A stretch of DNA of 45,926 nt. Source: a virus. Shown here in pieces: positions 12,485-20,956 of this stretch; position 1 is the stretch's first letter; each line of letters opens with the position of its first letter. Location: positions 1 through 45,926 of IMG/VR virus record IMGVR_UViG_3300020436_003687, one strand, 5' to 3'. The notes below the pieces were generated by a model. It ran no database searches, was not told where the DNA came from, and saw only the letters and a program-made list of their open reading frames with translations. A program made the position numbers and the translations under genes.

Positions 12485-12712
12485 CTAGTTCTTATTTTTC
12501 TTAAGGGTGCGTACTTTTGTACGAAGTCTGATTAGGTCATTATCTAACATTCTGATCCTATCAATAAGAGCTATTAAAGTTGTGCTTGTGTTACCAAGTT
12601 TTGGTTTAATTTCTTGAACAATGTAGTTGTATAAGAACCAAATAAAATACGCAAGGAAAAACATTGCAACCACTGGAAATCCATATTCGTTAATAATAGT
12701 TACTATTTGCAT
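12485..12712 (-). CDS. Single-TM coiled-coil membrane protein, 75 aa
   Basis: One membrane segment (about residues 9-32, YGFPVVAMFFLAYFIWFLYNYIV) is followed by a charged heptad-like tail (TTLIALIDRIRMLDNDLIRLRTKVRTLKKNKN). The next gene (12713-12991) has the same layout and similar GFP/GLPI start, so they are paralogues. The form resembles small holin-like phage proteins, but it might instead belong to the adjacent curli/cyclase module. It starts directly after the stop of its partner, so the two are co-translated. Confidence 0.6.
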   Translation of the reverse strand: MQIVTIINEYGFPVVAMFFLAYFIWFLYNYIVQEIKPKLGNTSTTLIALIDRIRMLDNDLIRLRTKVRTLKKNKN

Positions 12713-12991
12713 CTAATCCTTCCTGGCATCTTTTTTTCCGTCTGCTCTGGCAATTCTATCTGTGTCCACCGGCAGTCCTAATTGCTCAGACACTTCTTGG
12801 TCAATTTTTATTATGTCATTGTTCATAGTTTTTACCCTATTATCTAATTGCTGTATTACTGATTCTATAAATTTTATTGATCCTACTACACTCCCTAATA
12901 TGTATTTGATGATTATCATAATGAAAGCCCCCAACCCAATGGTGGCCGCAATAGGTAAGCCTAAATCTGCAACTAATGTCCAAAAGTTCAT
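12713..12991 (-). CDS. Single-TM coiled-coil membrane protein, 92 aa
   Basis: The N-terminal membrane helix (about residues 8-34, ADLGLPIAATIGLGAFIMIIIKYILG) precedes a coiled-coil-like tail (FIESVIQQLDNRVKTMNNDIIKIDQEV) and a charged end. It is paralogous in layout to the 75-aa protein that follows. A late promoter 8 bp before the ATG places it in late expression, which fits a lysis-related role. Its place just after the cyclase gene also allows a link to that membrane sensor. Both are inference. Confidence 0.6.
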   Translation of the reverse strand: MNFWTLVADLGLPIAATIGLGAFIMIIIKYILGSVVGSIKFIESVIQQLDNRVKTMNNDIIKIDQEVSEQLGLPVDTDRIARADGKKDARKD

Positions 12992-12999
12992 AATGTGTG

Positions 13000-13007
13000 T
13001 ATTTAAT
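13000..13007 (-). promoter_or_regulatory. Late promoter octamer ATTAAATA
   Basis: The minus-strand octamer ATTAAATA is followed by CACACATT and then the ATG at 12991 (8 bp gap). The same octamer-CACACAT arrangement occurs before the gene at 15220. Confidence 0.6.
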
Positions 13008-14826
13008 TCTTAATCGTGTACACCTTAACAGATTCCGTTTTTCCTTTGACCATAATGCTGTCGATGTAATCAAAATTGTAATCGTATTTTGCCGCTTTGT
13101 AGGTTTTCTCTCCAACAACTACTGTCTTGCCAAGTGTTTTAGAACTGCTTTCTAACCTTGCGGCAAGATTAACAGCGTCACCAATCACACTGTAATCAAA
13201 TCTCTGATCTGATCCCATGTTGCCCACCAGTGCTTCGCCTGTGTTTATTCCAATACCTATAGCTATCGTAGGTAATTCTTCTGCGGCCAGCTGAACATTC
13301 AGTTTTGACAATTCCCTCTGCATGTCAATAGCAGCCTGAACTGCGTGTTGCTCATGGTCTGGGTCTTCTATAGGTGCGTTCCAGAAGGCCATTATACAGT
13401 CGCCCATGAACTTGTCTATAGTTCCACCGTTTTCTATAATGACATCTGTCATTCGTGTCAAAAATCTGTTAATTAATTTTGTGAGGCCTTCAGGATTTCC
13501 TTTGTACTTCTCGCTGATGGGTGTGAAACCTCTGATATCACAGAATAGGAAAGTCATATTTCTGGTCTCACCACCAAGTTTTAGGAGTGACGGATCCTTC
13601 TGTAGTTTCTTGACCATGCCAGGATCTAGGTAGTGTTCAAACTGTTTCTTGATCTGTTGTTTGAGACCAAACTCTTTCACGAATCTGTTGAACACAGCGT
13701 GGAATCCTGTTATGGTTGTGACCAATATGATCCAACTGGCGTCCCAGAGTTGTAAGTGTTTGACGAAATAAAAGTATGCGCCATAGGCTGTTCCTGACCA
13801 TACAGTTAGTAATACAGCGCCAACCAACCAATAGGGTGCAAAACCTGCCAATAAAATTATTATTACTGCAAGCAAACCTGCTGCCACATATTCAAGAAAA
13901 GTTGCAGTGTCTAATCTCACTATGTTCTCACCGTTTATCACAGTCTGAAGACTGACTGCCATCGCTATGTGGCTATATTCCTCACCGTTGGGTGTTGCGA
14001 TAATTGTGCTGATACCTTGGGCGGTGTTTCCTATTATCACAGTCTTGCCAAAGACCGAACTGAAATCATCTGTGATGCTTAATGTTGGAAACTCCTTGTT
14101 CCACCTTAGCCATATCCTTGCGTACTGGTCTGTTTTAATTGTTTTGAACTTTGGTACCCTTAATGCTATCACACCACCTTCGCTGGCTTTGACTTGATAA
14201 CTTGGATCTCCAACTGCTACTCTTATAACTTCTAATGCAACACTAGGATAGACGTCTTCCCCAACTCTCATCAGTAAAGGTAGTCTCCTCACCACACCGT
14301 CTATCTCTGGCGTGGTGTTCACAACTCCAACACCGTCAACGTTGTCTCCCAATAAGGGTATTGGTCCTAGCATTCCTGGCCATTCGAACAACCAAGGTAA
14401 CGGATCACCTATCTTAGCAACACCACGTGGTACTGCGTTTTTATTTGTCTGCGTTGTGCCCGTCTGTGCGATCACGATTCCATTTTGTACCAAGGCCTGT
14501 GCGAGATCCATGTCTCCACCCAACCTATCCTCTTCTGAAAACAATATTGGAAGAACAATTATGCCTGCACCTGCTTCACGCAGTCGCCATATCACATCTG
14601 CGAGTACACTCCTCTTCCATGGCCACTGTCCGTTCTGTTCTATACTCTTCTCATCTATCTCAACAATTACTACATCCTCACTCACAGTTGGCTTGTCATA
14701 TTTCTGTATCAGGTCAAAACTTTTTAATCTTGCTGTCTCCTTCACAAAAGGATCTTTCAGTCCCCAAAGCATCAGTACCGCGAGTGTAATAAATGCAAGT
14801 GTCCAGTGTGTAAGGATCTTATTCAC
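13003..14826 (-). CDS. CHASE2-domain class III adenylate/guanylate cyclase, 607 aa
   Basis: The order is: N-terminal TM (about 8-24), extracytoplasmic CHASE2 sensor (about 30-300, with SEDVVIVEIDEKS, GQWPWKR and VVNTTPEIDGVVRRLPL), three TMs (about 313-380), then a cytoplasmic class III cyclase domain. Catalytic residues are intact: metal Asp430 (FCDIRGFT) and Asp476 (KFMGD), substrate Lys472, and Asn553 and Arg557 (DAVNLAARLE). Ser546 stands at the base-selecting position where many bacterial adenylate cyclases have Thr. It should make cAMP (or cGMP) from NTP in response to an envelope signal. The start is GTG, overlapping the preceding stop. Base composition looks less AT-rich than its neighbours, suggesting recent acquisition from bacteria. 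Confidence 0.9.
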   Translation of the reverse strand: MNKILTHWTLAFITLAVLMLWGLKDPFVKETARLKSFDLIQKYDKPTVSEDVVIVEIDEKSIEQNGQWPWKRSVLADVIWRLREAGAGIIVLPILFSEEDRLGGDMDLAQALVQNGIVIAQTGTTQTNKNAVPRGVAKIGDPLPWLFEWPGMLGPIPLLGDNVDGVGVVNTTPEIDGVVRRLPLLMRVGEDVYPSVALEVIRVAVGDPSYQVKASEGGVIALRVPKFKTIKTDQYARIWLRWNKEFPTLSITDDFSSVFGKTVIIGNTAQGISTIIATPNGEEYSHIAMAVSLQTVINGENIVRLDTATFLEYVAAGLLAVIIILLAGFAPYWLVGAVLLTVWSGTAYGAYFYFVKHLQLWDASWIILVTTITGFHAVFNRFVKEFGLKQQIKKQFEHYLDPGMVKKLQKDPSLLKLGGETRNMTFLFCDIRGFTPISEKYKGNPEGLTKLINRFLTRMTDVIIENGGTIDKFMGDCIMAFWNAPIEDPDHEQHAVQAAIDMQRELSKLNVQLAAEELPTIAIGIGINTGEALVGNMGSDQRFDYSVIGDAVNLAARLESSSKTLGKTVVVGEKTYKAAKYDYNFDYIDSIMVKGKTESVKVYTIKN

Positions 14827-15220
14827 CTTTTATATCCTTTTCCCATATTTCAAAACCTATATTCAAGCCTGTAACCAGTCCATATATCATCGCTATGCCG
14901 AGAATTAGAATGACCAGTATGATTGGACTCAATAGCCATAGCCACCAGTAGTACCTGAACACGTTCTGTCCTTTGGCCAGACGTTTGACCCTGTGGTCCA
15001 TAAACCAGTGAACTATCCTCTTCACAACACTCTTCAACTTGTCCACCAAGAACTTGTTAATAAACCAACGCACCGCTCTCATCACTATCAGTATTGGGGA
15101 ACTTAACACCTCGAAGAACAATAAGAAACAGTCAACGCTAAGGTCAACTATGTTGTCTGCTGTGCAGGCTTTCTTCCAACGTTCACGCAGAGTCAGTTTT
15201 TTTGGTTTCTCATCTGCCAT
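14819..15220 (-). CDS. Membrane protein beside the cyclase, 133 aa
   Basis: The protein has a basic soluble N-terminus (KPKKLTLRERWKKACTADN), a hydrophobic stretch around 32-55, an amphipathic basic region (FLVDKLKSVVKRIVHWFMDHRVKRLAKG) and a strong TM near 92-120 (WWLWLLSPIILVILILGIAMIYGLV). I do not recognise a family. It overlaps the cyclase start by 8 bp, so the two are translated together; it may assist the cyclase or act in envelope disruption. A late promoter lies 8 bp before its ATG. Like the cyclase gene, its DNA looks richer in GC than most of the window. Confidence 0.6.
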   Translation of the reverse strand: MADEKPKKLTLRERWKKACTADNIVDLSVDCFLLFFEVLSSPILIVMRAVRWFINKFLVDKLKSVVKRIVHWFMDHRVKRLAKGQNVFRYYWWLWLLSPIILVILILGIAMIYGLVTGLNIGFEIWEKDIKGE

Positions 15221-15228
15221 TATGTGTG

Positions 15229-15236
15229 TATTTAAC
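15229..15236 (-). promoter_or_regulatory. Late promoter octamer GTTAAATA
   Basis: The minus-strand octamer GTTAAATA, then CACACATA and ATG (15220). It likely drives the membrane protein and cyclase pair late in infection. Confidence 0.6.
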
Positions 15237-15241
15237 TAGAT

Positions 15242-16711
15242 CTAGTTTCCCTGTGTGGTCGACACAGCACATCCTGATTGGGTGCCACAAGTCATATCAA
15301 TATTATAATTTTGATCTGTAGAACCTTGTTGCACTAGATCAAAATCTGTCGAGTAACCATCAAGATCAATTCTGCCGGCGTGATCTCCACTGCCTGATTG
15401 AGTGATATCAACATCGTGTGCATATGATCCTGTGCCTAATTTAAGATCCAAATAGTGTTGACCACTGCCCGATTGTGATATATCCACTGTATTATTTGCG
15501 TTGTCAATATCAAGAAACAATATTTTATCGCCATCGTTCAATTGCTGTAGGCTTATCACATTTTGAGATGCATCAATGTCAACACTCATATAATGTTCAC
15601 TGTTTGCATCTCCATCGTTCCTTTGGGTAAGATTTGTTGTATTAGTACTACCATCTATGTCTAACATAATTCTATGATCACCTACATCAACAGAATAATC
15701 ACCTTGACTGATGTTAACTGTGTTTGTGCTACCAGTTATGTCTAATCCTATTCCATTCCTTCCACTGTTTCCACTTGTTGTGATATTGCCTTGATCCACA
15801 CTCAAGTTATTGTTATCACCTGTGATGGTGGCGTCTCCAGACCAATTGGATCCTGTAATAAAATTATCTTGGCCTGATTGTTGGATATTCACTGTGTTAT
15901 TGTCACCATTCACATTCATATTAACACCATTGCTTGATGTTCCTTTGGCAGTGTTAACTGATGTTGTTTGGCTAGAAGTAATAGTGACCGTCACTGCTGA
16001 TGTTGTATTCACTGTGCTTGTTATCACATCACTGATCAGTGACGTTAAAAATTCTTTGTTATCAGCAGTATAATATTGTGAATGAGAAGCATAATTTATA
16101 TCTGTGATTATAATAACTTTACCATTAGAATAACTGGATGAAAGAGCATCACCATCAAATAAAGCAACACCACAACGGCCTTGACCATTGGCGGCAAGAC
16201 ATTTCCCATTTGTTCCTAAGTTACTGATGACACCACCAAATGCAAAATTTAAATATGCCCAATCACTAGGCAATGTTGACAGTATGGATGTAGTGGATAA
16301 TTGTTCATTGGTGCCAGTATAGTCTATGTTTAAACTTGTGGAATAAGTTATAGAATTATCAGAAGTGACGTCTCTAATAAAACTTTGTATTTGATTGTTT
16401 CGACTTGTGAAATTAGTGTTCTCCCCATTTAAAAACACTGTGCCACCATTTGACAATATTGTTTTAAATCCATCTGTTGGCAAACTACTACCACTGTATC
16501 TCAAATCATAGTATTGTTCATAAGAAGAGAAATCCGTAATACTATTTGTGCTACTGGTTACGGTATGACCAGCGTCTTCTAATCTATTCTTCCATTTGCT
16601 ATGTGTATTACCATAATTTTGATGATGAATGTACACATCTTCAGCCAATACATTAGCACAATAAAAAAATAAAAAAATAAAACTAATTAACCTGCTTAAT
16701 CCTAATTTCAT
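15242..16711 (-). CDS. Secreted curlin-repeat protein with N-terminal GATase/ThuA-like domain, ~489 aa
   Basis: A signal peptide (MKLGLSRLISFIFLFFYCANVLAED) starts at ATG 16711; an in-frame GTG lies at 16723. The next ~210 residues look like a globular GATase1/ThuA-like domain (YDLRYSGSSLPTDGFKTILSNGGTVFLNGEN; GKVIIITDINYAS). From about residue 260 to the end are repeats of the curlin type: NNTVNIQQSGQDN, NTVNISQGD, NTVDISQSGSGQ, DVDITQSGSGDH and DFDLVQQGS, i.e. N-x-hydrophobic-x-hydrophobic-x-Q-x-G. Curlin repeats form cross-beta amyloid stacks outside the cell after export by CsgG. The gene overlaps the FecR gene end. It could be a fibre nucleator or adhesive tip (inference). Confidence 0.75.
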   Translation of the reverse strand: MKLGLSRLISFIFLFFYCANVLAEDVYIHHQNYGNTHSKWKNRLEDAGHTVTSSTNSITDFSSYEQYYDLRYSGSSLPTDGFKTILSNGGTVFLNGENTNFTSRNNQIQSFIRDVTSDNSITYSTSLNIDYTGTNEQLSTTSILSTLPSDWAYLNFAFGGVISNLGTNGKCLAANGQGRCGVALFDGDALSSSYSNGKVIIITDINYASHSQYYTADNKEFLTSLISDVITSTVNTTSAVTVTITSSQTTSVNTAKGTSSNGVNMNVNGDNNTVNIQQSGQDNFITGSNWSGDATITGDNNNLSVDQGNITTSGNSGRNGIGLDITGSTNTVNISQGDYSVDVGDHRIMLDIDGSTNTTNLTQRNDGDANSEHYMSVDIDASQNVISLQQLNDGDKILFLDIDNANNTVDISQSGSGQHYLDLKLGTGSYAHDVDITQSGSGDHAGRIDLDGYSTDFDLVQQGSTDQNYNIDMTCGTQSGCAVSTTQGN

Positions 16712-17786
16712 TCTGTTGTCCACCTATTACATAATCAAAAACTTCAAAGTCGTTTTGTTGCACATTTAAAATATAGCCATACTCTTGATCTAATCTCAGT
16801 TCTAAATAATTACCAGAACCACCTTCTCTTATAAAAACATATTGTGGATTTTCATCTAATAGTATTATTCCGGTTTCAGGATCTTTTCCAAATGTGACTC
16901 CAGTTGCAGATTTCTTTTTATCAAATTCACTTCTCATCTGCAACGCCAATTGTTTGTTTAATTGTGCTAGGATATCAACAAGAAAATTTTGTTCTAAGAA
17001 ATCAATATCCAATCCAGTAGCCCAAGTATCCTTTTCTTCCTCCAGATAATCAACTTCTAATTCATCAAATTTAAGAAAATCCAAATCCAATGCTGTTGCA
17101 ACTTGATTTAAGTTTTTTTCATATGCTTGTTGATCTTCAATTGCTGGAGGTTTAGATATAATCAAAAGATTGGATATCTGATCAGCATCAAGATCTAATA
17201 TGACAGGACGCATGGGATTTGACGCAACTGTATCAACCACAGTCGCTTGAAAAGCCTGATTCAATATTACATGACCAGCATCAGATTCCACAGAAATTTC
17301 TCCAACGTAACAATTACCTTGTGTGTCACACGAAGGTAGAAGTATTATTGTTGAACTACCCACTTCATCAACCGTCATTGTAAAGTCAGTACCCCTGACG
17401 GCAATTGTTGCAGTTGGTGTTGTTATTTTAATATTTTGTTTTGAATTTTTTGCAATCTGTCCCGATGCATATCTAATAGTTCCTAAAGATGCTTTAAGGG
17501 ACAAAGCACCTGTTTGTGAATTAGGATCATAAACAAATTCATCTATCACAAGTTTGGAATGTTGTGTTACGTCAACTCTTGTTTGATCTATAAATTCTAT
17601 TGCTGTTTTACCATTGCCTGTTTTCACAGTGTCATAAGAAAATACATCAAGATCAATCACAGACTCATAAGTTTCTCCTGAATCTCTTTCAATTGTGCTA
17701 TTTCCTTCCTGTAGAATAACATCTCCTATACTAGCCTTTACCAGTGTCGGTGCTAAAAAAAGCAGTAAGAAAATAAAGAAACGCAT
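16683..17786 (-). CDS. Secreted FecR-domain protein, 367 aa
   Basis: A signal peptide (MRFFIFLLLFLAPTLVKAS) is followed by a FecR domain at about 20-165: GDVILQEGNSTIERDSGET, DTVKTGNGKTAIEFIDQTRVDV, GTIRYASG and TPTATIAVRGTDFTM match the family's repeated beta strands. In bacteria, stand-alone FecR-domain proteins often sit beside CHASE2 cyclases and are thought to work as envelope sensors or ligand platforms. The C-terminus (VIGGQQNEIRIKQVN) resembles a curlin strand, so it may also contact the amyloid. ATG 17786 is preferred over GTG 17789. It starts just after the curlin gene stop and is probably coupled to it. Confidence 0.8.
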   Translation of the reverse strand: MRFFIFLLLFLAPTLVKASIGDVILQEGNSTIERDSGETYESVIDLDVFSYDTVKTGNGKTAIEFIDQTRVDVTQHSKLVIDEFVYDPNSQTGALSLKASLGTIRYASGQIAKNSKQNIKITTPTATIAVRGTDFTMTVDEVGSSTIILLPSCDTQGNCYVGEISVESDAGHVILNQAFQATVVDTVASNPMRPVILDLDADQISNLLIISKPPAIEDQQAYEKNLNQVATALDLDFLKFDELEVDYLEEEKDTWATGLDIDFLEQNFLVDILAQLNKQLALQMRSEFDKKKSATGVTFGKDPETGIILLDENPQYVFIREGGSGNYLELRLDQEYGYILNVQQNDFEVFDYVIGGQQNEIRIKQVN

Positions 17787-17790
17787 CACA

Positions 17791-18474
17791 TTAATCAGTT
17801 TGGCTGATATCTATGTCCGCTGAGTCTCCAGATGTTGTTAAGGTAATCATGTTATCATTGACACCTGATTGGATTATGTCCACATCTGCTAATCCACCTG
17901 TGTGAGTGTGTATTAAAGTGTGTCCATTTACATCTCCATTGCCATCAATGTCAATCAACCAGTTGTTTGTGTCACCATCAACTGTAATTGTTAGTATTGC
18001 ACTTGTGCCATCGATTGTGGCCGCAATCACGTTTGAATCATCCGACGCTGCTGATGTTATTGTTGCTGTTGTGTTTGCCGCATCAGAAGTTTGCCCAATG
18101 TCTAGGTCTATGTCATTTGAGTTACCAACCATTGTGACACTTGCTGTAACAGTGGCACAAGATGAATTGTTTCCTGTGCTATCACAATTGATGTCGATAT
18201 TGTTAGAACTACCTGTCACGTTGAACGTTCCAGTGTAACTTGCTCCGTTAACATCAAATGTTAATACGTTGGAACTTCCAACTTGATCAATATCGATTGT
18301 GGTACTTGCACCAGCTACTGTAGATGCAGTTGTACTATTACCTACTGTGTTATTGGCACCATCCTGTGTGATATCCAAGTCTAGACTAGCACCTGACTGT
18401 GTTACATATATGTCGTTGGCATATGCACTATAAGAAAATGCCAAGGCAAAAAATATTGTTAATAATTTATTCAT
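17791..18474 (-). CDS. Curlin-like repeat protein (CsgA/CsgB-type), 227 aa
   Basis: ATG 18474 gives a clean signal peptide (MNKLLTIFFALAFSYSAYAN). The mature protein is Asn/Thr/Asp/Ser-rich with curlin-type motifs: DIYVTQSGASLDLDITQDGANNTVG, TIDIDQVGSSNVLTF, VDIIQSGVNDNMITL and ADIDISQTD. These Q-x-G-x-x-N patterns form the amyloid core in CsgA and CsgB. Compared with CsgA (about 150 aa) it is longer, and the middle repeats are degenerate. It has its own late promoter 11 bp upstream and follows csgG, the expected export pore. It is probably the main secreted fibre subunit. Confidence 0.75.
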   Translation of the reverse strand: MNKLLTIFFALAFSYSAYANDIYVTQSGASLDLDITQDGANNTVGNSTTASTVAGASTTIDIDQVGSSNVLTFDVNGASYTGTFNVTGSSNNIDINCDSTGNNSSCATVTASVTMVGNSNDIDLDIGQTSDAANTTATITSAASDDSNVIAATIDGTSAILTITVDGDTNNWLIDIDGNGDVNGHTLIHTHTGGLADVDIIQSGVNDNMITLTTSGDSADIDISQTD

Positions 18475-18478
18475 AATA

Positions 18479-19276
18479 TTAATAGTATTTAATTTTCCAA
18501 AGTCCTTCTTTATCGCCCAGTTTAATGATTTCAAGTATGCAAAATTCTATTGCACTTCTCACTGCATAATTCACAGGCTCGTTTACTGCAACGCCTGACT
18601 CAACTTCAAATGCTTTTGTGCTCATATCCAAAAATCTAAATACGTCGGCACCTGTCTTGTGACTTGCTATTGTTTTTGTTGCTTCTGCTGTTAACAACAC
18701 TTCTCCGGTTTGCACCGCAACTAATCTCATGGATACAGTAACTTGATCAACTCTGTATTCTTCACTGATTCCAATTCCAAAATATCTTGCTCCATCACCG
18801 CCTGAAGCGACATTCGCATCATAACCAATAATACCACCCTCGATTAACAGTCCAGCAAATACAAGAGGTTTAAGCACGTTGGTTGCACCAACATCTCCAT
18901 CATAAAGTTCTCTCGTTGATCTAATCAATTGTCTTTCTTTAACTAAACTATCTAGCCCTTTTCTTTCAACTACCTTAAACCAACTGCCATCACCAACTGC
19001 TTTCAAGGCCGCAATCACCCAGGTATCCGAACCTTGTGATACTGCCATGGATAGTTGTGAAAATTTCGAACTAGGTTTTCTTTGCCCAGTGTAGTCTGGA
19101 AAATCATACACCGCGATTGTAATTATAGGCTGTTCTGTCAATGGCGGAATTGCTCTTAACAGATGCTCGGTAGGTGTGCCTTCTATGAAGGGTTTATCAC
19201 CAATTTTAACTTTGTTCTTACTTGCTGCACAGGCAGTTAGAAAAATCATTGCAAATACTAATAATAAGTTTTTCAT
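18479..19276 (-). CDS. csgG: CsgG-like curli secretion lipoprotein, 265 aa
   Basis: A lipoprotein signal with lipobox LTAC (Cys16) opens the protein. The CsgG core follows: PITIAVYDFPDYTGQRKPS, SDTWVIAALKAVGDGSWFKVVERKGLDSLVKERQLIR, then GVAVNEPVNYAVRSAIEFCILEIIKLG. Length (about 265) matches Escherichia coli CsgG. CsgG assembles a nonameric pore in the outer membrane that exports curlin subunits. The start lies just after the csgF stop. CsgG homologues are known in marine myophages, where roles in lysis or surface change have been suggested without proof. Confidence 0.9.
   Translation of the reverse strand: MKNLLLVFAMIFLTACAASKNKVKIGDKPFIEGTPTEHLLRAIPPLTEQPIITIAVYDFPDYTGQRKPSSKFSQLSMAVSQGSDTWVIAALKAVGDGSWFKVVERKGLDSLVKERQLIRSTRELYDGDVGATNVLKPLVFAGLLIEGGIIGYDANVASGGDGARYFGIGISEEYRVDQVTVSMRLVAVQTGEVLLTAEATKTIASHKTGADVFRFLDMSTKAFEVESGVAVNEPVNYAVRSAIEFCILEIIKLGDKEGLWKIKYY
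18486..18493 (-). promoter_or_regulatory. Late promoter octamer ATTAAATA
   Basis: The minus-strand octamer ATTAAATA, inside the last codons of csgG, ends 11 bp before the curlin-like ATG at 18474. It allows extra late expression of the curlin gene relative to csgF-csgG. Confidence 0.55.
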
Positions 19277-19277
19277 A

Positions 19278-19763
19278 TTAAAATTGGAAGTCTCCTAATG
19301 GTACTGACATAGTAGTAACATTGCCAGTTGGATCAGTGATAGTTAATGTTATTATTTCTGTCGAAGTGTCTTTTACCCAATAAATTGTTGATCCTTCGAC
19401 TGTTGCTGTACCACTAGTTGGACAAGTGCCTGTACAGGTAGTTCCAAACATGTTATCAACTAATTGTTTAGACAAGTTGGCATAAATTCTTGATTCAACA
19501 TTTTTTATAAATTTGTTTATAGTCGTATTGTTTTCTTCACGTTTTGCTGCCGCGGCCGCTGATTTTTTATCATCTTTGGCTTGCTTTTTCCTTGTTTCCT
19601 GTAATTGATCAATTGATAAAACATGTTGTGAATATCCTGTTCCGCTAAAACTTGGATTCTTGAATCCGTGGACTAAGGCCTCTGCAAAAGCAGATGTCAT
19701 AAAACTGTTAAGGACAAAAAAGCCTAAAATAATTGTAAAAATTAATTTTCTATACATACGCAT
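19278..19763 (-). CDS. csgF: CsgF-like curli assembly protein, 161 aa
   Basis: After a signal peptide (MRMYRKLIFTIILGFFVLNSFMTSAFAE) the mature N-terminus reads ALVHGFKNPSFSGTGYSQHVLSIDQLQ. This matches the CsgF segment (LVYTPVNPSFGG..LLSSAQ) that inserts into the CsgG channel. CsgF couples secretion to fibre nucleation at the cell surface. A Lys/Ala/Glu linker and a C-terminal beta domain (GTCTGTCPTSGTATVEGSTIYWVKD) follow. ATG 19763 fits because a late octamer ends exactly 5 bp before it; the longer frame would cross that promoter. It forms an operon with csgG, 1-2 bp apart. Confidence 0.88.
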   Translation of the reverse strand: MRMYRKLIFTIILGFFVLNSFMTSAFAEALVHGFKNPSFSGTGYSQHVLSIDQLQETRKKQAKDDKKSAAAAAKREENNTTINKFIKNVESRIYANLSKQLVDNMFGTTCTGTCPTSGTATVEGSTIYWVKDTSTEIITLTITDPTGNVTTMSVPLGDFQF

Positions 19764-19768
19764 ATGGG

Positions 19769-19776
19769 TATTTATT
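19769..19776 (-). promoter_or_regulatory. Late promoter octamer AATAAATA, 5 bp from ATG
   Basis: The minus-strand AATAAATA ends 5 bp before the csgF start codon at 19763 and is one mismatch from the T4 consensus. It is the expected start of the curli module transcript. Confidence 0.65.
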
Positions 19777-19964
19777 GAAATTACCAAATGCAGATCTGTG
19801 CGGTATTGTTACATGGACCTGCCATATTAGTACGTTAACCTCGCTCATTGTTATTTAATCTATGCGTATATTTTAAGTGTACGTACATAATGATTTAAAG
19901 CATATCTGCCCTGCGTTATTATTGTTTTACAGTCATCAAATATTGTTATTAAATACACAAAAAA
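19777..19964. other. Divergent intergenic region
   Basis: This region of about 190 bp separates csgF (minus) from the plus-strand metallopeptidase gene. Apart from the two late octamers at its ends and an 8-bp palindrome (GTACGTAC), I see no gene, tRNA or clear sigma-70 promoter here. Confidence 0.5.
19948..19955 (+). promoter_or_regulatory. Late promoter octamer ATTAAATA (plus strand)
   Basis: ATTAAATA then CACAAAAAA and the ATG at 19965 (9-bp gap). It is on the plus strand and drives the single gene at 19965-20384. Confidence 0.6.
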
Positions 19965-20384
19965 ATGAAAGAAATTCTAACCGCACTTATGATTTGGATA
20001 AGTGCAAACACCTTTTACAACACGGATCACCCATTGCCAAATGTGATATTTTTGAAACAGGCAGAAATGAATGCTTTATATTACAAAGACAACGAGCATG
20101 AACCAAACGATCTTCATGGCATGTACAACAAAGAGCAAGATGTAATCATATTACCTGACACATGGGACAGGACAAAGCCTTGGGATCAAGCTGTGTTGCT
20201 TCATGAAATGATACATTATTATCAAGACATGAACGAAATGCAATTTGATTGCACACAAGAAATGGAACAAGACGCTTGGCCCATTCAACAATTTTATTTA
20301 AAAAAAGTCCACAACTATGATTGGGATTATGACCAATTATGGTATCTCATGATCAGCACATGCCATCATGAGTTTGGATACTAA
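19965..20384 (+). CDS. Zinc-metallopeptidase-like protein with HExxH, 139 aa
   Basis: The segment WDQAVLLHEMIHYYQDMN carries the zincin motif His80-Glu81-x-x-His84. A short hydrophobic N-terminus (ILTALMIWISANTFY) may be an export signal. The protein is close to the small DUF6647-type proteins in which HEM(I/V)H follows a plain DVIILPD strand. It could cleave peptides in the periplasm; substrate unknown. It stands alone on the plus strand under a late promoter and converges on the YqgE-like gene (4-bp tail overlap). Confidence 0.7.
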   Translation: MKEILTALMIWISANTFYNTDHPLPNVIFLKQAEMNALYYKDNEHEPNDLHGMYNKEQDVIILPDTWDRTKPWDQAVLLHEMIHYYQDMNEMQFDCTQEMEQDAWPIQQFYLKKVHNYDWDYDQLWYLMISTCHHEFGY

Positions 20385-20956
20385 TTTTTGAAAATTTTAT
20401 CTGTTAATTCTGAAGTTGTGTTTTGCACAGCTTTTGATACGCACATTTCCCACATGTCTTCTCTTTTTGGTCCAAACACAAGTTCATGATCATAATCAAT
20501 AATCAACCAACTCATTGATGCTTTCCTTGGTGGCACAGCGTCAAGTTCTGCTTCAAGCTGTCCTTGATCCCAACTTGACATACCAAGCGTGATCAATTTT
20601 TCCTTTGGTCCACCGCCTTGAGCAATGACATCTAACATTTTTTTATCTAAGGTAAATGCCAACGGATGTTCTCCAGTGTTGGAACTACCTAGCACATAAT
20701 CTTTGGAATGTAACACTCCGATAATGTTATTCAATATTGGTCCACCGTAAAAAATAGGTGGATCTATATCAGGTTTTCTGGCTACACTTCCTTCTTCGCA
20801 GACATGACTGAAAGTTGGATGATTACACTTTTTATTAATAATCACGCCGCCTGCTCCAGAAATATCATGTTTCCACATGTACACAACTGTTTTTTGAAAA
20901 CGCCAGTCTGGCATACCCGGAGGGGCTACAAGAAGTTTGCCTTGTGTATCAATCAT
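20381..20956 (-). CDS. YqgE/AlgH (UPF0301) family protein, 191 aa
   Basis: The protein starts GKLLVAPPGMPDWRFQKTVVYMWKHDISGAGGVIINKK, has FYGGPILNNIIGVLHS in the middle and LGMSSWDQGQLEAELDAVPP later, all hallmark segments of the YqgE/AlgH fold. Length matches. The biochemical role of this family is not established; some members affect transcription regulation. It follows the 425-aa late gene by 10 bp, so it is probably in the same late operon, which is unusual for a regulator. Confidence 0.85.
   Translation of the reverse strand: MIDTQGKLLVAPPGMPDWRFQKTVVYMWKHDISGAGGVIINKKCNHPTFSHVCEEGSVARKPDIDPPIFYGGPILNNIIGVLHSKDYVLGSSNTGEHPLAFTLDKKMLDVIAQGGGPKEKLITLGMSSWDQGQLEAELDAVPPRKASMSWLIIDYDHELVFGPKREDMWEMCVSKAVQNTTSELTDKIFKN

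Follow-up and report, generated by a model that had tools for sequence, protein, structure and literature searches.

The curli-type module and its distribution

The stretch of viral DNA analysed here (45,926 nucleotides, positions 1 to 45,926 of IMG/VR record IMGVR_UViG_3300020436_003687; hereafter the window) carries on its minus strand one continuous run of genes coding for CsgF, CsgG, two curlin-like proteins, a FecR-domain protein, a membrane protein and a CHASE2 class III cyclase, and on balance we slightly favour the joint reading that a curli-like fibre is made late in infection and displayed, and that its export may be monitored by the FecR-CHASE2 pair. At the sequence level this reading draws on a CsgG lipoprotein pore, CsgF, two curlins with signal peptides, late motifs and a predicted beta-solenoid in the second curlin. 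The Pfam families and the unbroken run bear out the first-pass annotation, which described a complete curli-type module comprising its substrates as well as a FecR/CHASE2-cyclase pair; the genes that it called fused do adjoin one another, but they do not encode fused proteins. It had placed this set of genes at 12485-19787. The cyclase gene stops at 13003, and 12485-12991 holds an additional pair of small membrane-protein genes (sm1 and sm2) in the same run, which it had not named.

The curli module itself is already known, and the claim that only CsgF and CsgG had been recorded in marine myophages was wrong, since a 2022 report on podo- and myo-pelagiphages has the whole module, FecR and adenylate cyclase included (PMC9599517). 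The HTVC023P-type podophages and pelagimyophages described there carry CsgF, CsgG, curlin(s), FecR and adenylate cyclase in the order seen in the window, one or two 'histidine kinase' genes lie ahead of the module in the podophages, and marine metatranscriptomes show expression of the phage module genes (PMC9599517). The module is also shared by Pelagibacter phage HTVC008M (CsgG 65%, FecR 67% and cyclase 53% identical to the window) and Methylophilales phage Melnitz (52%, 55% and 58%, respectively), both of which lack the window's extra membrane protein; in GenBank the Melnitz module is fully annotated, whereas FecR and the second curlin of HTVC008M are 'hypothetical'. As the module occurs in isolated phages and the window is itself a virus record, host DNA or chimerism, part of one condition under which the first-pass annotation would have fallen, can be ruled out as a general explanation of the module.

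Relatives found in scans of viral contigs numbered 531 for FecR and 169 for CsgG; the 80 top-ranking ones of each were kept. The order CsgF-CsgG-curlin-FecR-curlin, with a cyclase and at least two sm genes, was found in all 29 loci that had a unique FecR protein and enough flanking sequence (42/42 before duplicates were removed), the cyclase being upstream and on the opposite strand in one of the 29. Gene labels in these relatives (sm1 or sm2, first or second curlin) follow the best-scoring profile and are partly arbitrary between paralogues. A separate scan based on the sm genes gave 29 loci in which FecR and cyclase were both present, and 13 of these had no curlin between the two. Module genes are also carried by phage contigs of 259-307 kb. 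DNA_pol_A was detected in 0/18 records (fragments included), which places podophage modules, as far as tested, outside our sample.

Secretion genes

The CsgF-like secreted chaperone (161 aa, 19278..19763, minus strand; Pfam CsgF 1.7e-16; phrog_35372; signal peptide by eye) aligns with the HTVC008M and Melnitz proteins. Its start is most likely ATG 19763 and not TTG 19787, because the latter lies upstream of the promoter-like TAAATAC at 19768..19774 (minus strand). The CsgG-like outer-membrane pore lipoprotein (265 aa, 18479..19276, minus strand; Pfam CsgG 1.4e-48) has the lipobox LTAC, a pattern present in 121 of 129 relatives, and matches the solved E. coli CsgG at 1.1e-45 (phmmer). The CsgE gate was detected in none of 12 phage records by a search that did recover it from the E. 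coli control and from a Pseudoalteromonas plasmid; CsgE is reported to be absent from alphaproteobacterial modules too (PMC9599517). Of the features of type VIII secretion, the CsgG lipoprotein pore and CsgF are present, CsgE is not found in these records, and the curlin-repeat substrate is recognized through relatives and the beta-solenoid model, being borderline for the window alone. The phage module shares CsgG, CsgF and curlin repeats with the bacterial curli operons of E. coli and Alphaproteobacteria, but differs from them in having no detectable CsgE and in adding FecR/CHASE2 and headed curlins.

Curlin-like proteins and the variable head

In the profile searches CsgF, CsgG, FecR, CHASE2 and the cyclase all passed the curated cut-offs, whereas the window's two curlins fell just under that of Curlin_rpt (20.7 bits). 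Curlin-like protein 1 (227 aa, 17791..18474, minus strand; signal peptide by eye) scored 19.0 bits; it matches the NCBIfam CsgB model at 8.5e-4, far below cut-off, and is 71% identical to an HTVC008M gene product annotated as the curlin minor subunit CsgB. Curlin-like protein 2, with an N-terminal head (489 aa, 15242..16711, minus strand, start ATG 16711), scored 15.9 bits, and its predicted structure has a C-terminal beta-solenoid. Among eight second-curlin relatives scanned, two pass the Curlin_rpt cut-off (HTVC008M, 33.1 bits; L004, 32.5 bits), two come near it (18.6 and 18.2 bits) and four gave no match.

The head of curlin 2 (model residues 26-241, 16001..16648, minus strand) is read as ThuA/GATase1-like from VIA-align, with Z-scores of 12.7 to the IFT52 N-terminal domain and 11.3 to a ThuA-like protein, middling values that may reflect a common arrangement; Foldseek returned nothing at E<=0.001 for the curlin 2 model. 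The corresponding head is of PA14 type in HTVC008M, and none is recognized in Melnitz. Modules that are close relatives can differ in this head, which is gained, lost or replaced by another type. Among 83 unique pairs there were 26 ThuA-like heads, 12 of PA14 type, two of a third type and 43 proteins without a recognized head, meaning no match to three purpose-built profiles (ten such proteins exceed 300 aa). With short and long headless curlins counted as one type, the head class differed in 2/20 pairs at >=95% FecR identity, 12/42 at 90-95% and 60/96 at 80-85%; two different heads were opposed in only 1/42 pairs at 90-95% and 10/96 at 80-85%, so that the close-range differences are mostly gain or loss. 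These changing heads point to the partner-facing part.

Late-promoter-like motifs

The first-pass annotation had placed late promoters before csgF, the first curlin gene and the membrane protein-cyclase pair, and candidate motifs indeed stand at each of these places: TAAATAC before csgF and, at 18485..18491 (minus strand), before curlin 1, and TAAATACACACAT before the membrane protein and cyclase (15228..15234, minus strand); TAAATACACACAT also precedes the sm pair (12999..13005, minus strand). TAAATAC is not over-represented on the minus strand (10 sites, against a Markov mean of 6.4 and maximum of 16), but its placement stands out: when 44 gene starts were chosen by hand from the ORF list, 7 of the 10 sites fell 8-25 nt ahead of one of them (binomial p=5e-11), among these the starts of csgF, curlin 1, the membrane-protein gene and the sm pair. 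In relatives, TAAATA occurs within 40 nt upstream of CsgF in 80/118, of the cyclase in 17/79 and of the membrane protein in 3/15, compared with 42/2571 interior 40-mers. Only 8/144 genes of the first-curlin class, which in this count includes some second curlins, have it; the curlin 1 site is not conserved in relatives, and we reject it as a general feature.

The FecR-domain protein and its tail

FecI/FecR anti-sigma regulators have a cytoplasmic anti-sigma domain and a transmembrane helix ahead of the FecR domain. The secreted protein encoded here (368 aa, 16683..17789, minus strand; Pfam FecR 1.2e-9, residues 53-147) is built differently: its FecR domain, matched in 49/49 members of the alignment with the window included, runs from residue 53, directly behind the signal-peptide region (by eye), which leaves no room for an anti-sigma domain, and no further Pfam domain was found at E<=0.1. 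On this architecture we reject an iron-dependent anti-sigma FecR, although FecR is termed an iron-dependent regulator in PMC9599517, where the main text does not use the term CHASE2; the FecR-CHASE2 reading puts a concrete, testable pair in place of the iron-regulator idea.

The same architecture bears on the proposal that an open CsgG pore admits nutrients or cofactors to the infected cell (suggested in PMC7029224 and PMC9599517), with FecR/CHASE2 sensing nutrient supply. The missing CsgE gate in the 12 phage records and the hint of iron in the name FecR would suit such a role, but it leaves the curlin substrates unexplained, the FecR protein has no room for the anti-sigma domain and its bacterial relatives adjoin CHASE2 cyclases, and we consider it highly unlikely.

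The phage FecR protein appears, on short-motif evidence, to end in a curlin-like strand (GGQQNEIRIKQVN, 16683..16727, minus strand; C-terminal motif) that its bacterial relatives lack. A loose form of the motif closes 106/106 and 47/49 phage FecR proteins, compared with 44/3786 background ORFs; the strict form is weaker in the second set (18/49). Pfam Curlin_rpt was undetected in 49/49 FecR proteins, and the tail is rejected as a Pfam curlin repeat. Bacterial FecR C-termini differ from those of phages (nine distinct proteins compared by eye; one more partner, L210, was missed by the profile). The predicted model of the FecR protein is poor (pLDDT 51.6) and unfit for structure search.

The CHASE2 cyclase and the bacterial gene pair

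The 607 aa product of 13003..14826 (minus strand; Pfam CHASE2 1.8e-41, cyclase 2.9e-23) has both domains and the catalytic residues expected of a CHASE2 class III adenylate cyclase and is assigned as such from its sequence. D430, K472, D476 and R557, which we take to be the two metal Asp, the substrate Lys and the catalytic Arg, are kept in the alignments of 69/69 and 68/68 proteins; Asn553 is replaced by Ser in 3/69 and 14/68. A cNMP-binding (cAMP-receptor) domain was detected in 0/21 phage records, a large part of which are fragments, so that the host probably mediates the effect of any cAMP, and the first-pass annotation's 'self-contained' second-messenger system is unsupported.

FecR and CHASE2-cyclase genes form a bacterial pair. 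On the plasmids searched, FecR lay near 10/10 CHASE2 genes over cut-off (on the opposite strand in three), and an eleventh match, below cut-off, had no FecR nearby. The pairs of Alphaproteobacteria (Ruegeria, Paracoccus, Shinella, and Sinorhizobium CyaD1/SMc02177) resemble the phage arrangement in having a CHASE2-cyclase near a FecR-domain protein, but they differ in FecR ends unlike those of phages and in the absence of csgG from the nine records with CHASE2; likewise, FecR-CHASE2 was linked to curli in 0/6 bacterial curli loci. A cNMP-binding or Crp-like gene is present in 5/8 annotated bacterial FecR-CHASE2 regions, and bacteriocin-type export genes in 2/8. In Sinorhizobium meliloti, plasmid-expressed CyaD1 without CHASE2 is reported to give constitutive cAMP (PMC5498481), so CHASE2 can act as a restraint.

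The invariant catalytic residues, and the presence of FecR-CHASE2 without csgG on the bacterial plasmids searched, would also fit a cyclase that is the main payload, raising cAMP to reprogramme the host, with the curli genes supplying its signal or riding along. We give this very little credence, as the gene order and the association with curli hardly vary and the 21 phage records, many of them fragments, yielded no cAMP receptor.

Proposed fibre display and a possible monitoring role

We return to the displayed fibre as the reading that we slightly favour. In it, the infected cell would at a late stage export a curli-like fibre and present it on its surface. CsgG and CsgF would export both curlin 1, the putative body of the fibre, and curlin 2, a minor subunit that often has a head domain. 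The heads would turn over fast because of a variable outside partner that they meet, and if they do face such a partner the probable benefit is adhesion to cells nearby or the exclusion of rival phages. The FecR protein and CHASE2 cyclase would be a bacterial signalling pair added to the secretion module. From its curlin-like terminal strand, we infer that the FecR protein binds the curlins or leaves the cell with them and informs periplasmic CHASE2 of ongoing export; the cyclase would then set host cAMP, probably acting on host receptors. The sm pair perhaps serves inner-membrane gating or a holin-like step. What is at stake for fibre display with a cAMP signal is gluing cells, blocking rival phages or serving lysis.

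A self-monitoring display, in which the head is interchangeable, the FecR protein with its acquired tail rides on the fibre or forms its cap and tells CHASE2 of export, and host cAMP follows assembly, is conceivable and rather doubtful. If true, it would tie amyloid export to a second messenger and so represent a novel type of feedback on secretion, found in phages whose size ranges from about 140 to >300 kb. Several features look undescribed, among them the exchange of heads on the fibre and the resemblance of the FecR C-terminus to a fibre subunit: a literature search, its scope excluding most subscription journals and all bioRxiv preprints, gave no title or abstract on head swapping or on the FecR tail, and the relevant passages of PMC9599517 are silent on head domains, the FecR tail and genomes >200 kb.

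SAR11 bacteria belong to the most abundant cells of the ocean. It appears that phages infecting SAR11 and OM43 cause the secretion of fibres foreign to their hosts, which are reported to be unable to make such fibres themselves (PMC9599517; PMC9004378).

Further points stand against the fibre and monitoring readings, namely the curlins below cut-off, the predominance of gain or loss among close-range head differences, the shortness of the motif behind the FecR tail, the CsgE gate missing from the 12 phage records, the poor FecR model and the FecR-cyclase loci without a curlin. The S. meliloti FecR gene near cyaD1 is reported as dispensable for plant-signal perception (PMC5498481), which counts against monitoring.

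Small membrane proteins and a possible role in lysis

The small membrane proteins sm1 (12713..12991, minus strand; phrog_18771 1e-28; N-terminal transmembrane segment and polar helix by eye) and its paralogue sm2 (12485..12712, minus strand; phrog_18771 5.5e-25) belong to the module as judged from gene neighbourhoods, 69 of 77 new loci found through sm1 carrying module genes. In the phage collection, relatives of sm2 occur only in HTVC008M and Melnitz records (6/50,697), where they lie upstream of csgF, compared with after the cyclase in the window. By position only, the 'histidine kinase' genes of PMC9599517 would correspond to this pair. A kinase identity is rejected for the sm proteins: they are 75-118 aa long, lack HisKA/HATPase domains, and 18 members matched 17 families (E<=10) with no kinase among them.

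A weak similarity of sm2 to the holin family phrog_4898 (E=0.014, 22 residues of one protein) is in line with a repurposed CsgG/CsgF outer-membrane pore that times or aids lysis, with the small membrane proteins as its inner-membrane partner. A lysis-pore role has been put forward for Melnitz, in the cytograms and TEM of which no clumping was seen (PMC9004378), an observation that counts against the fibre reading; the late motifs and the CsgE gate missing from the 12 phage records also suit a pore. That proposal assumed that csgA and csgB were absent (PMC9004378), whereas a curlin gene adjoins csgG in 29/29 unique full loci, and a bare pore needs neither a curlin nor the varying head of the second one. 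We hold the lysis pore to be unlikely. The exit pore raised by the first-pass annotation is not supported, in that the kept curlins and changing head favour a displayed fibre over a bare pore, while a pore role may yet apply.

The membrane protein encoded beside the cyclase (133 aa, 14819..15220, minus strand) belongs to a minority of modules, being found in 5/42 loci (duplicates included), and has 14 relatives in viral contigs, likewise beside the cyclase.

A curli-type gene run and its precedents

The window, 45,926 bases long, is a virus record of IMG/VR. In transcription order, the minus-strand run opens with csgF (19278-19763), csgG (18479-19276) and the first curlin-like gene (curlin 1; 17791-18474), continues with a FecR-domain gene (16683-17789), the second curlin-like gene (curlin 2; 15242-16711), a membrane-protein gene (14819-15220) and a CHASE2 class III cyclase gene (13003-14826), and ends with two small membrane-protein genes (sm1, 12713-12991; sm2, 12485-12712). 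The first-pass annotation had rightly placed csgF, csgG, curlin, FecR, membrane-protein and CHASE2 cyclase genes in one such run, and Pfam supports CsgF, CsgG, FecR, CHASE2 and cyclase above curated cut-offs. Its curlin repeats fared less well, as both window curlins fall just under the Curlin_rpt cut-off, which 2 of 8 scanned curlin 2 relatives clearly pass. The window CsgG matches the solved E. coli CsgG (1.1e-45). Upstream of csgF lies an AlgH-like (DUF179) protein (20381-20956, minus strand; Pfam 5e-27), an unusual cargo for a phage, and a short ORF facing the run (19965-20384, plus strand) carries, by eye, a zinc-protease-like HEMIH motif.

The isolated Pelagibacter phage HTVC008M and the Methylophilales phages Melnitz have these same genes. 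Of the earlier papers, one described csgF/csgG with adjoining curli-associated and hypothetical genes and proposed 'sibling capture' (PMC7029224), a second regarded csgA/B as absent and suggested a lysis role (PMC9004378), and a third reported the complete set, including curlins, FecR and adenylate cyclase, from both podo- and myo-pelagiphages, traced it to Alphaproteobacteria and documented its expression in metatranscriptomes (PMC9599517). Because of this last report, the initial statement that CsgF/CsgG alone are known was wrong; the module as a kind is already published, and the window adds a further example, with an additional membrane protein and a curlin whose head is ThuA-like. What merits pursuit is the FecR-CHASE2 identity, the curlin-like FecR tail, the changing heads, the sm linkage and the large genomes.

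Conservation and distribution of the module

Viral contigs were scanned for FecR, CsgG and the membrane protein, and the resulting loci were annotated with profiles built for this analysis. Every locus with a unique FecR protein, >4.5 kb upstream and >5 kb downstream (29 of 29) has the core order CsgF-CsgG-curlin-FecR-curlin, accompanied by a cyclase and two or more small membrane-protein genes. When the small proteins served as the starting point (best 80 of 592 relatives), 69 of 77 new loci proved to contain csg, FecR or cyclase genes, as did 15/15 of those with >17 kb of sequence, the position of the sm pair varying (before or after the module, on either strand). Owing to this linkage, and because sm2 occurs in 6 of 50,697 phage records, all HTVC008M or Melnitz, the pair is part of the module. 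The first scans show a curlin between FecR and cyclase in 71 of 73 unique cases, the cyclase scan in 31 of 33; among the best 80 of 592 sm relatives it stands there in 14 of 29, with 13 lacking it and 2 otherwise arranged, so some lineages can do without this gene.

Four phage contigs (L248, L276, L290 and L353), of 258,859, 285,304, 278,126 and 306,714 bases (lengths not listed in the order of the names), likewise carry genes of the module, and all four encode a T4-type prohead protease; on the 278,126-base contig, the stretch examined includes only the sm pair and cyclase of the module. A contig of a 'Flavobacteriaceae' MAG (L171, NZAX01000026.1) bears this phage module, probably because phage DNA was binned into the MAG. 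Stray bacterial DNA may account for OR851715.1, a 1,499-base entry labelled 'Salmonella phage' whose csgG is 43% identical to that of the window.

The FecR and CHASE2 cyclase pair

Cyclase residues D430, K472, D476 and R557 are kept in 69/69 and 68/68 proteins of two sets, and, by the usual rules, a Lys in position 472 combined with Ser/Thr/Asp in position 546 suggests that the substrate is ATP. That cAMP is itself the main payload seems improbable to us. In 15 plasmid records picked for encoding a similar cyclase or CsgG, a FecR match lies within 3.0 kb of each of 10 above-cut-off CHASE2 places (same strand in 7, opposite in 3) and was not found within 3.0 kb of one below-cut-off match, while neither FecR nor CHASE2 lies within 10 kb of any of 6 CsgG places. 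FecR and the CHASE2 cyclase are therefore a pre-existing bacterial pair, which came together with curli either in the phages considered here or in some ancestor not yet sampled. Of 8 annotated bacterial regions, 5 also contain a cNMP-binding or Crp-like gene; cNMP-binding domains were found in 0/8 and 0/13 phage records, many of them fragments, and in 10 of 14 control genomes. On Ensifer/Shinella plasmids (L193, L195), the pair adjoins genes for NHLP-type bacteriocin export and for a cNMP-binding protein, which hints at a possible service to export systems generally.

An anti-sigma protein of FecI/FecR type is ruled out, the FecR domain being preceded by a signal peptide and starting from residue 53. 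The evidence from S. meliloti CyaD1 (PMC5498481), constitutively making cAMP without its CHASE2, supports CHASE2 as a restraint; the same work, in which a nearby FecR gene was not needed for plant-signal perception, counts against a simple FecR sensor.

The curlin-like C-terminus of FecR

At their C-termini, phage FecR proteins have a strand that follows the pattern G-x-x-N-x-I-x-I-x-Q-x-N. Loosely defined, it occurs in 106/106 FecR proteins and 178/199 curlins (CsgG 0/129, CsgF 0/118, cyclases 2/74), and in 47/49 FecR proteins of a second, new set against 44/3786 other ORFs. The strict form is found in 88/106 and 18/49 FecR proteins, respectively, 0/3786 other ORFs and 0/199 curlins. By eye, the pattern is absent from nine bacterial FecR partners, and several bacterial curlins have similar C-terminal ends. 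Since Pfam's curlin model scored the tail in 0 of 49 phage FecR proteins, its apparent curlin-like nature is argued at the level of motif.

Exchangeable heads and a proposed fibre

Among 83 unique FecR/curlin 2 pairs, the N-terminal head of curlin 2 is ThuA-like in 26, PA14-type in 12 and of a third type in 2, with 43 lacking a recognised head; Pfam scores the PA14-type head of HTVC008M at 27.7 bits and that of locus L016 at 17.7, under the cut-off, with no match in L010. Head class differs in 2/20 comparisons with FecR at least 95% identical, 12/42 at 90-95%, 17/83 at 85-90% and 60/96 at 80-85%, two different real heads meeting in 0, 1, 0 and 10 of these. Head gain or loss is therefore faster than swapping between real heads. 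Loci L062 and L066 have FecR proteins 98.9% identical and similar signal peptides, and curlin 2 proteins of 476 aa with a head and 274 aa without; their curlin parts share only 32% identity, so much of the gene has been replaced. An AlphaFold2 model of the window curlin 2 (mean pLDDT 68.9) predicts that the head is an alpha/beta domain comparable to IFT52 (Z 12.7) and to a ThuA-like protein (Z 11.3), and that the C-terminal part forms a beta-solenoid comparable to a SufBCD-complex chain (Z 18.1, rmsd 3.0, 209 residues); Foldseek alone gave this model no significant match.

Quick change of a surface-facing domain is predicted by adhesion or exclusion and would not be by a plain pore; we consider a pore for lysis unlikely and one for uptake a poor prospect. 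We lean towards a curli-like fibre that would be displayed late in infection, often with a variable head, and whose export FecR-CHASE2 would monitor; the monitoring step, taken by itself, is advanced tentatively.

Late-promoter motifs

TAAATA, which we take to be the core of a T4-type late promoter, is present in the 40 nt preceding csgF in 80 of 118 relatives and in those preceding 60 of 142 sm1-class genes (labels being partly arbitrary between the sm paralogues), against 42 of 2571 interior 40-mers. The total count of minus-strand TAAATAC in the window shows no excess, and 7 of its 10 sites stand 8-25 nt before a start.
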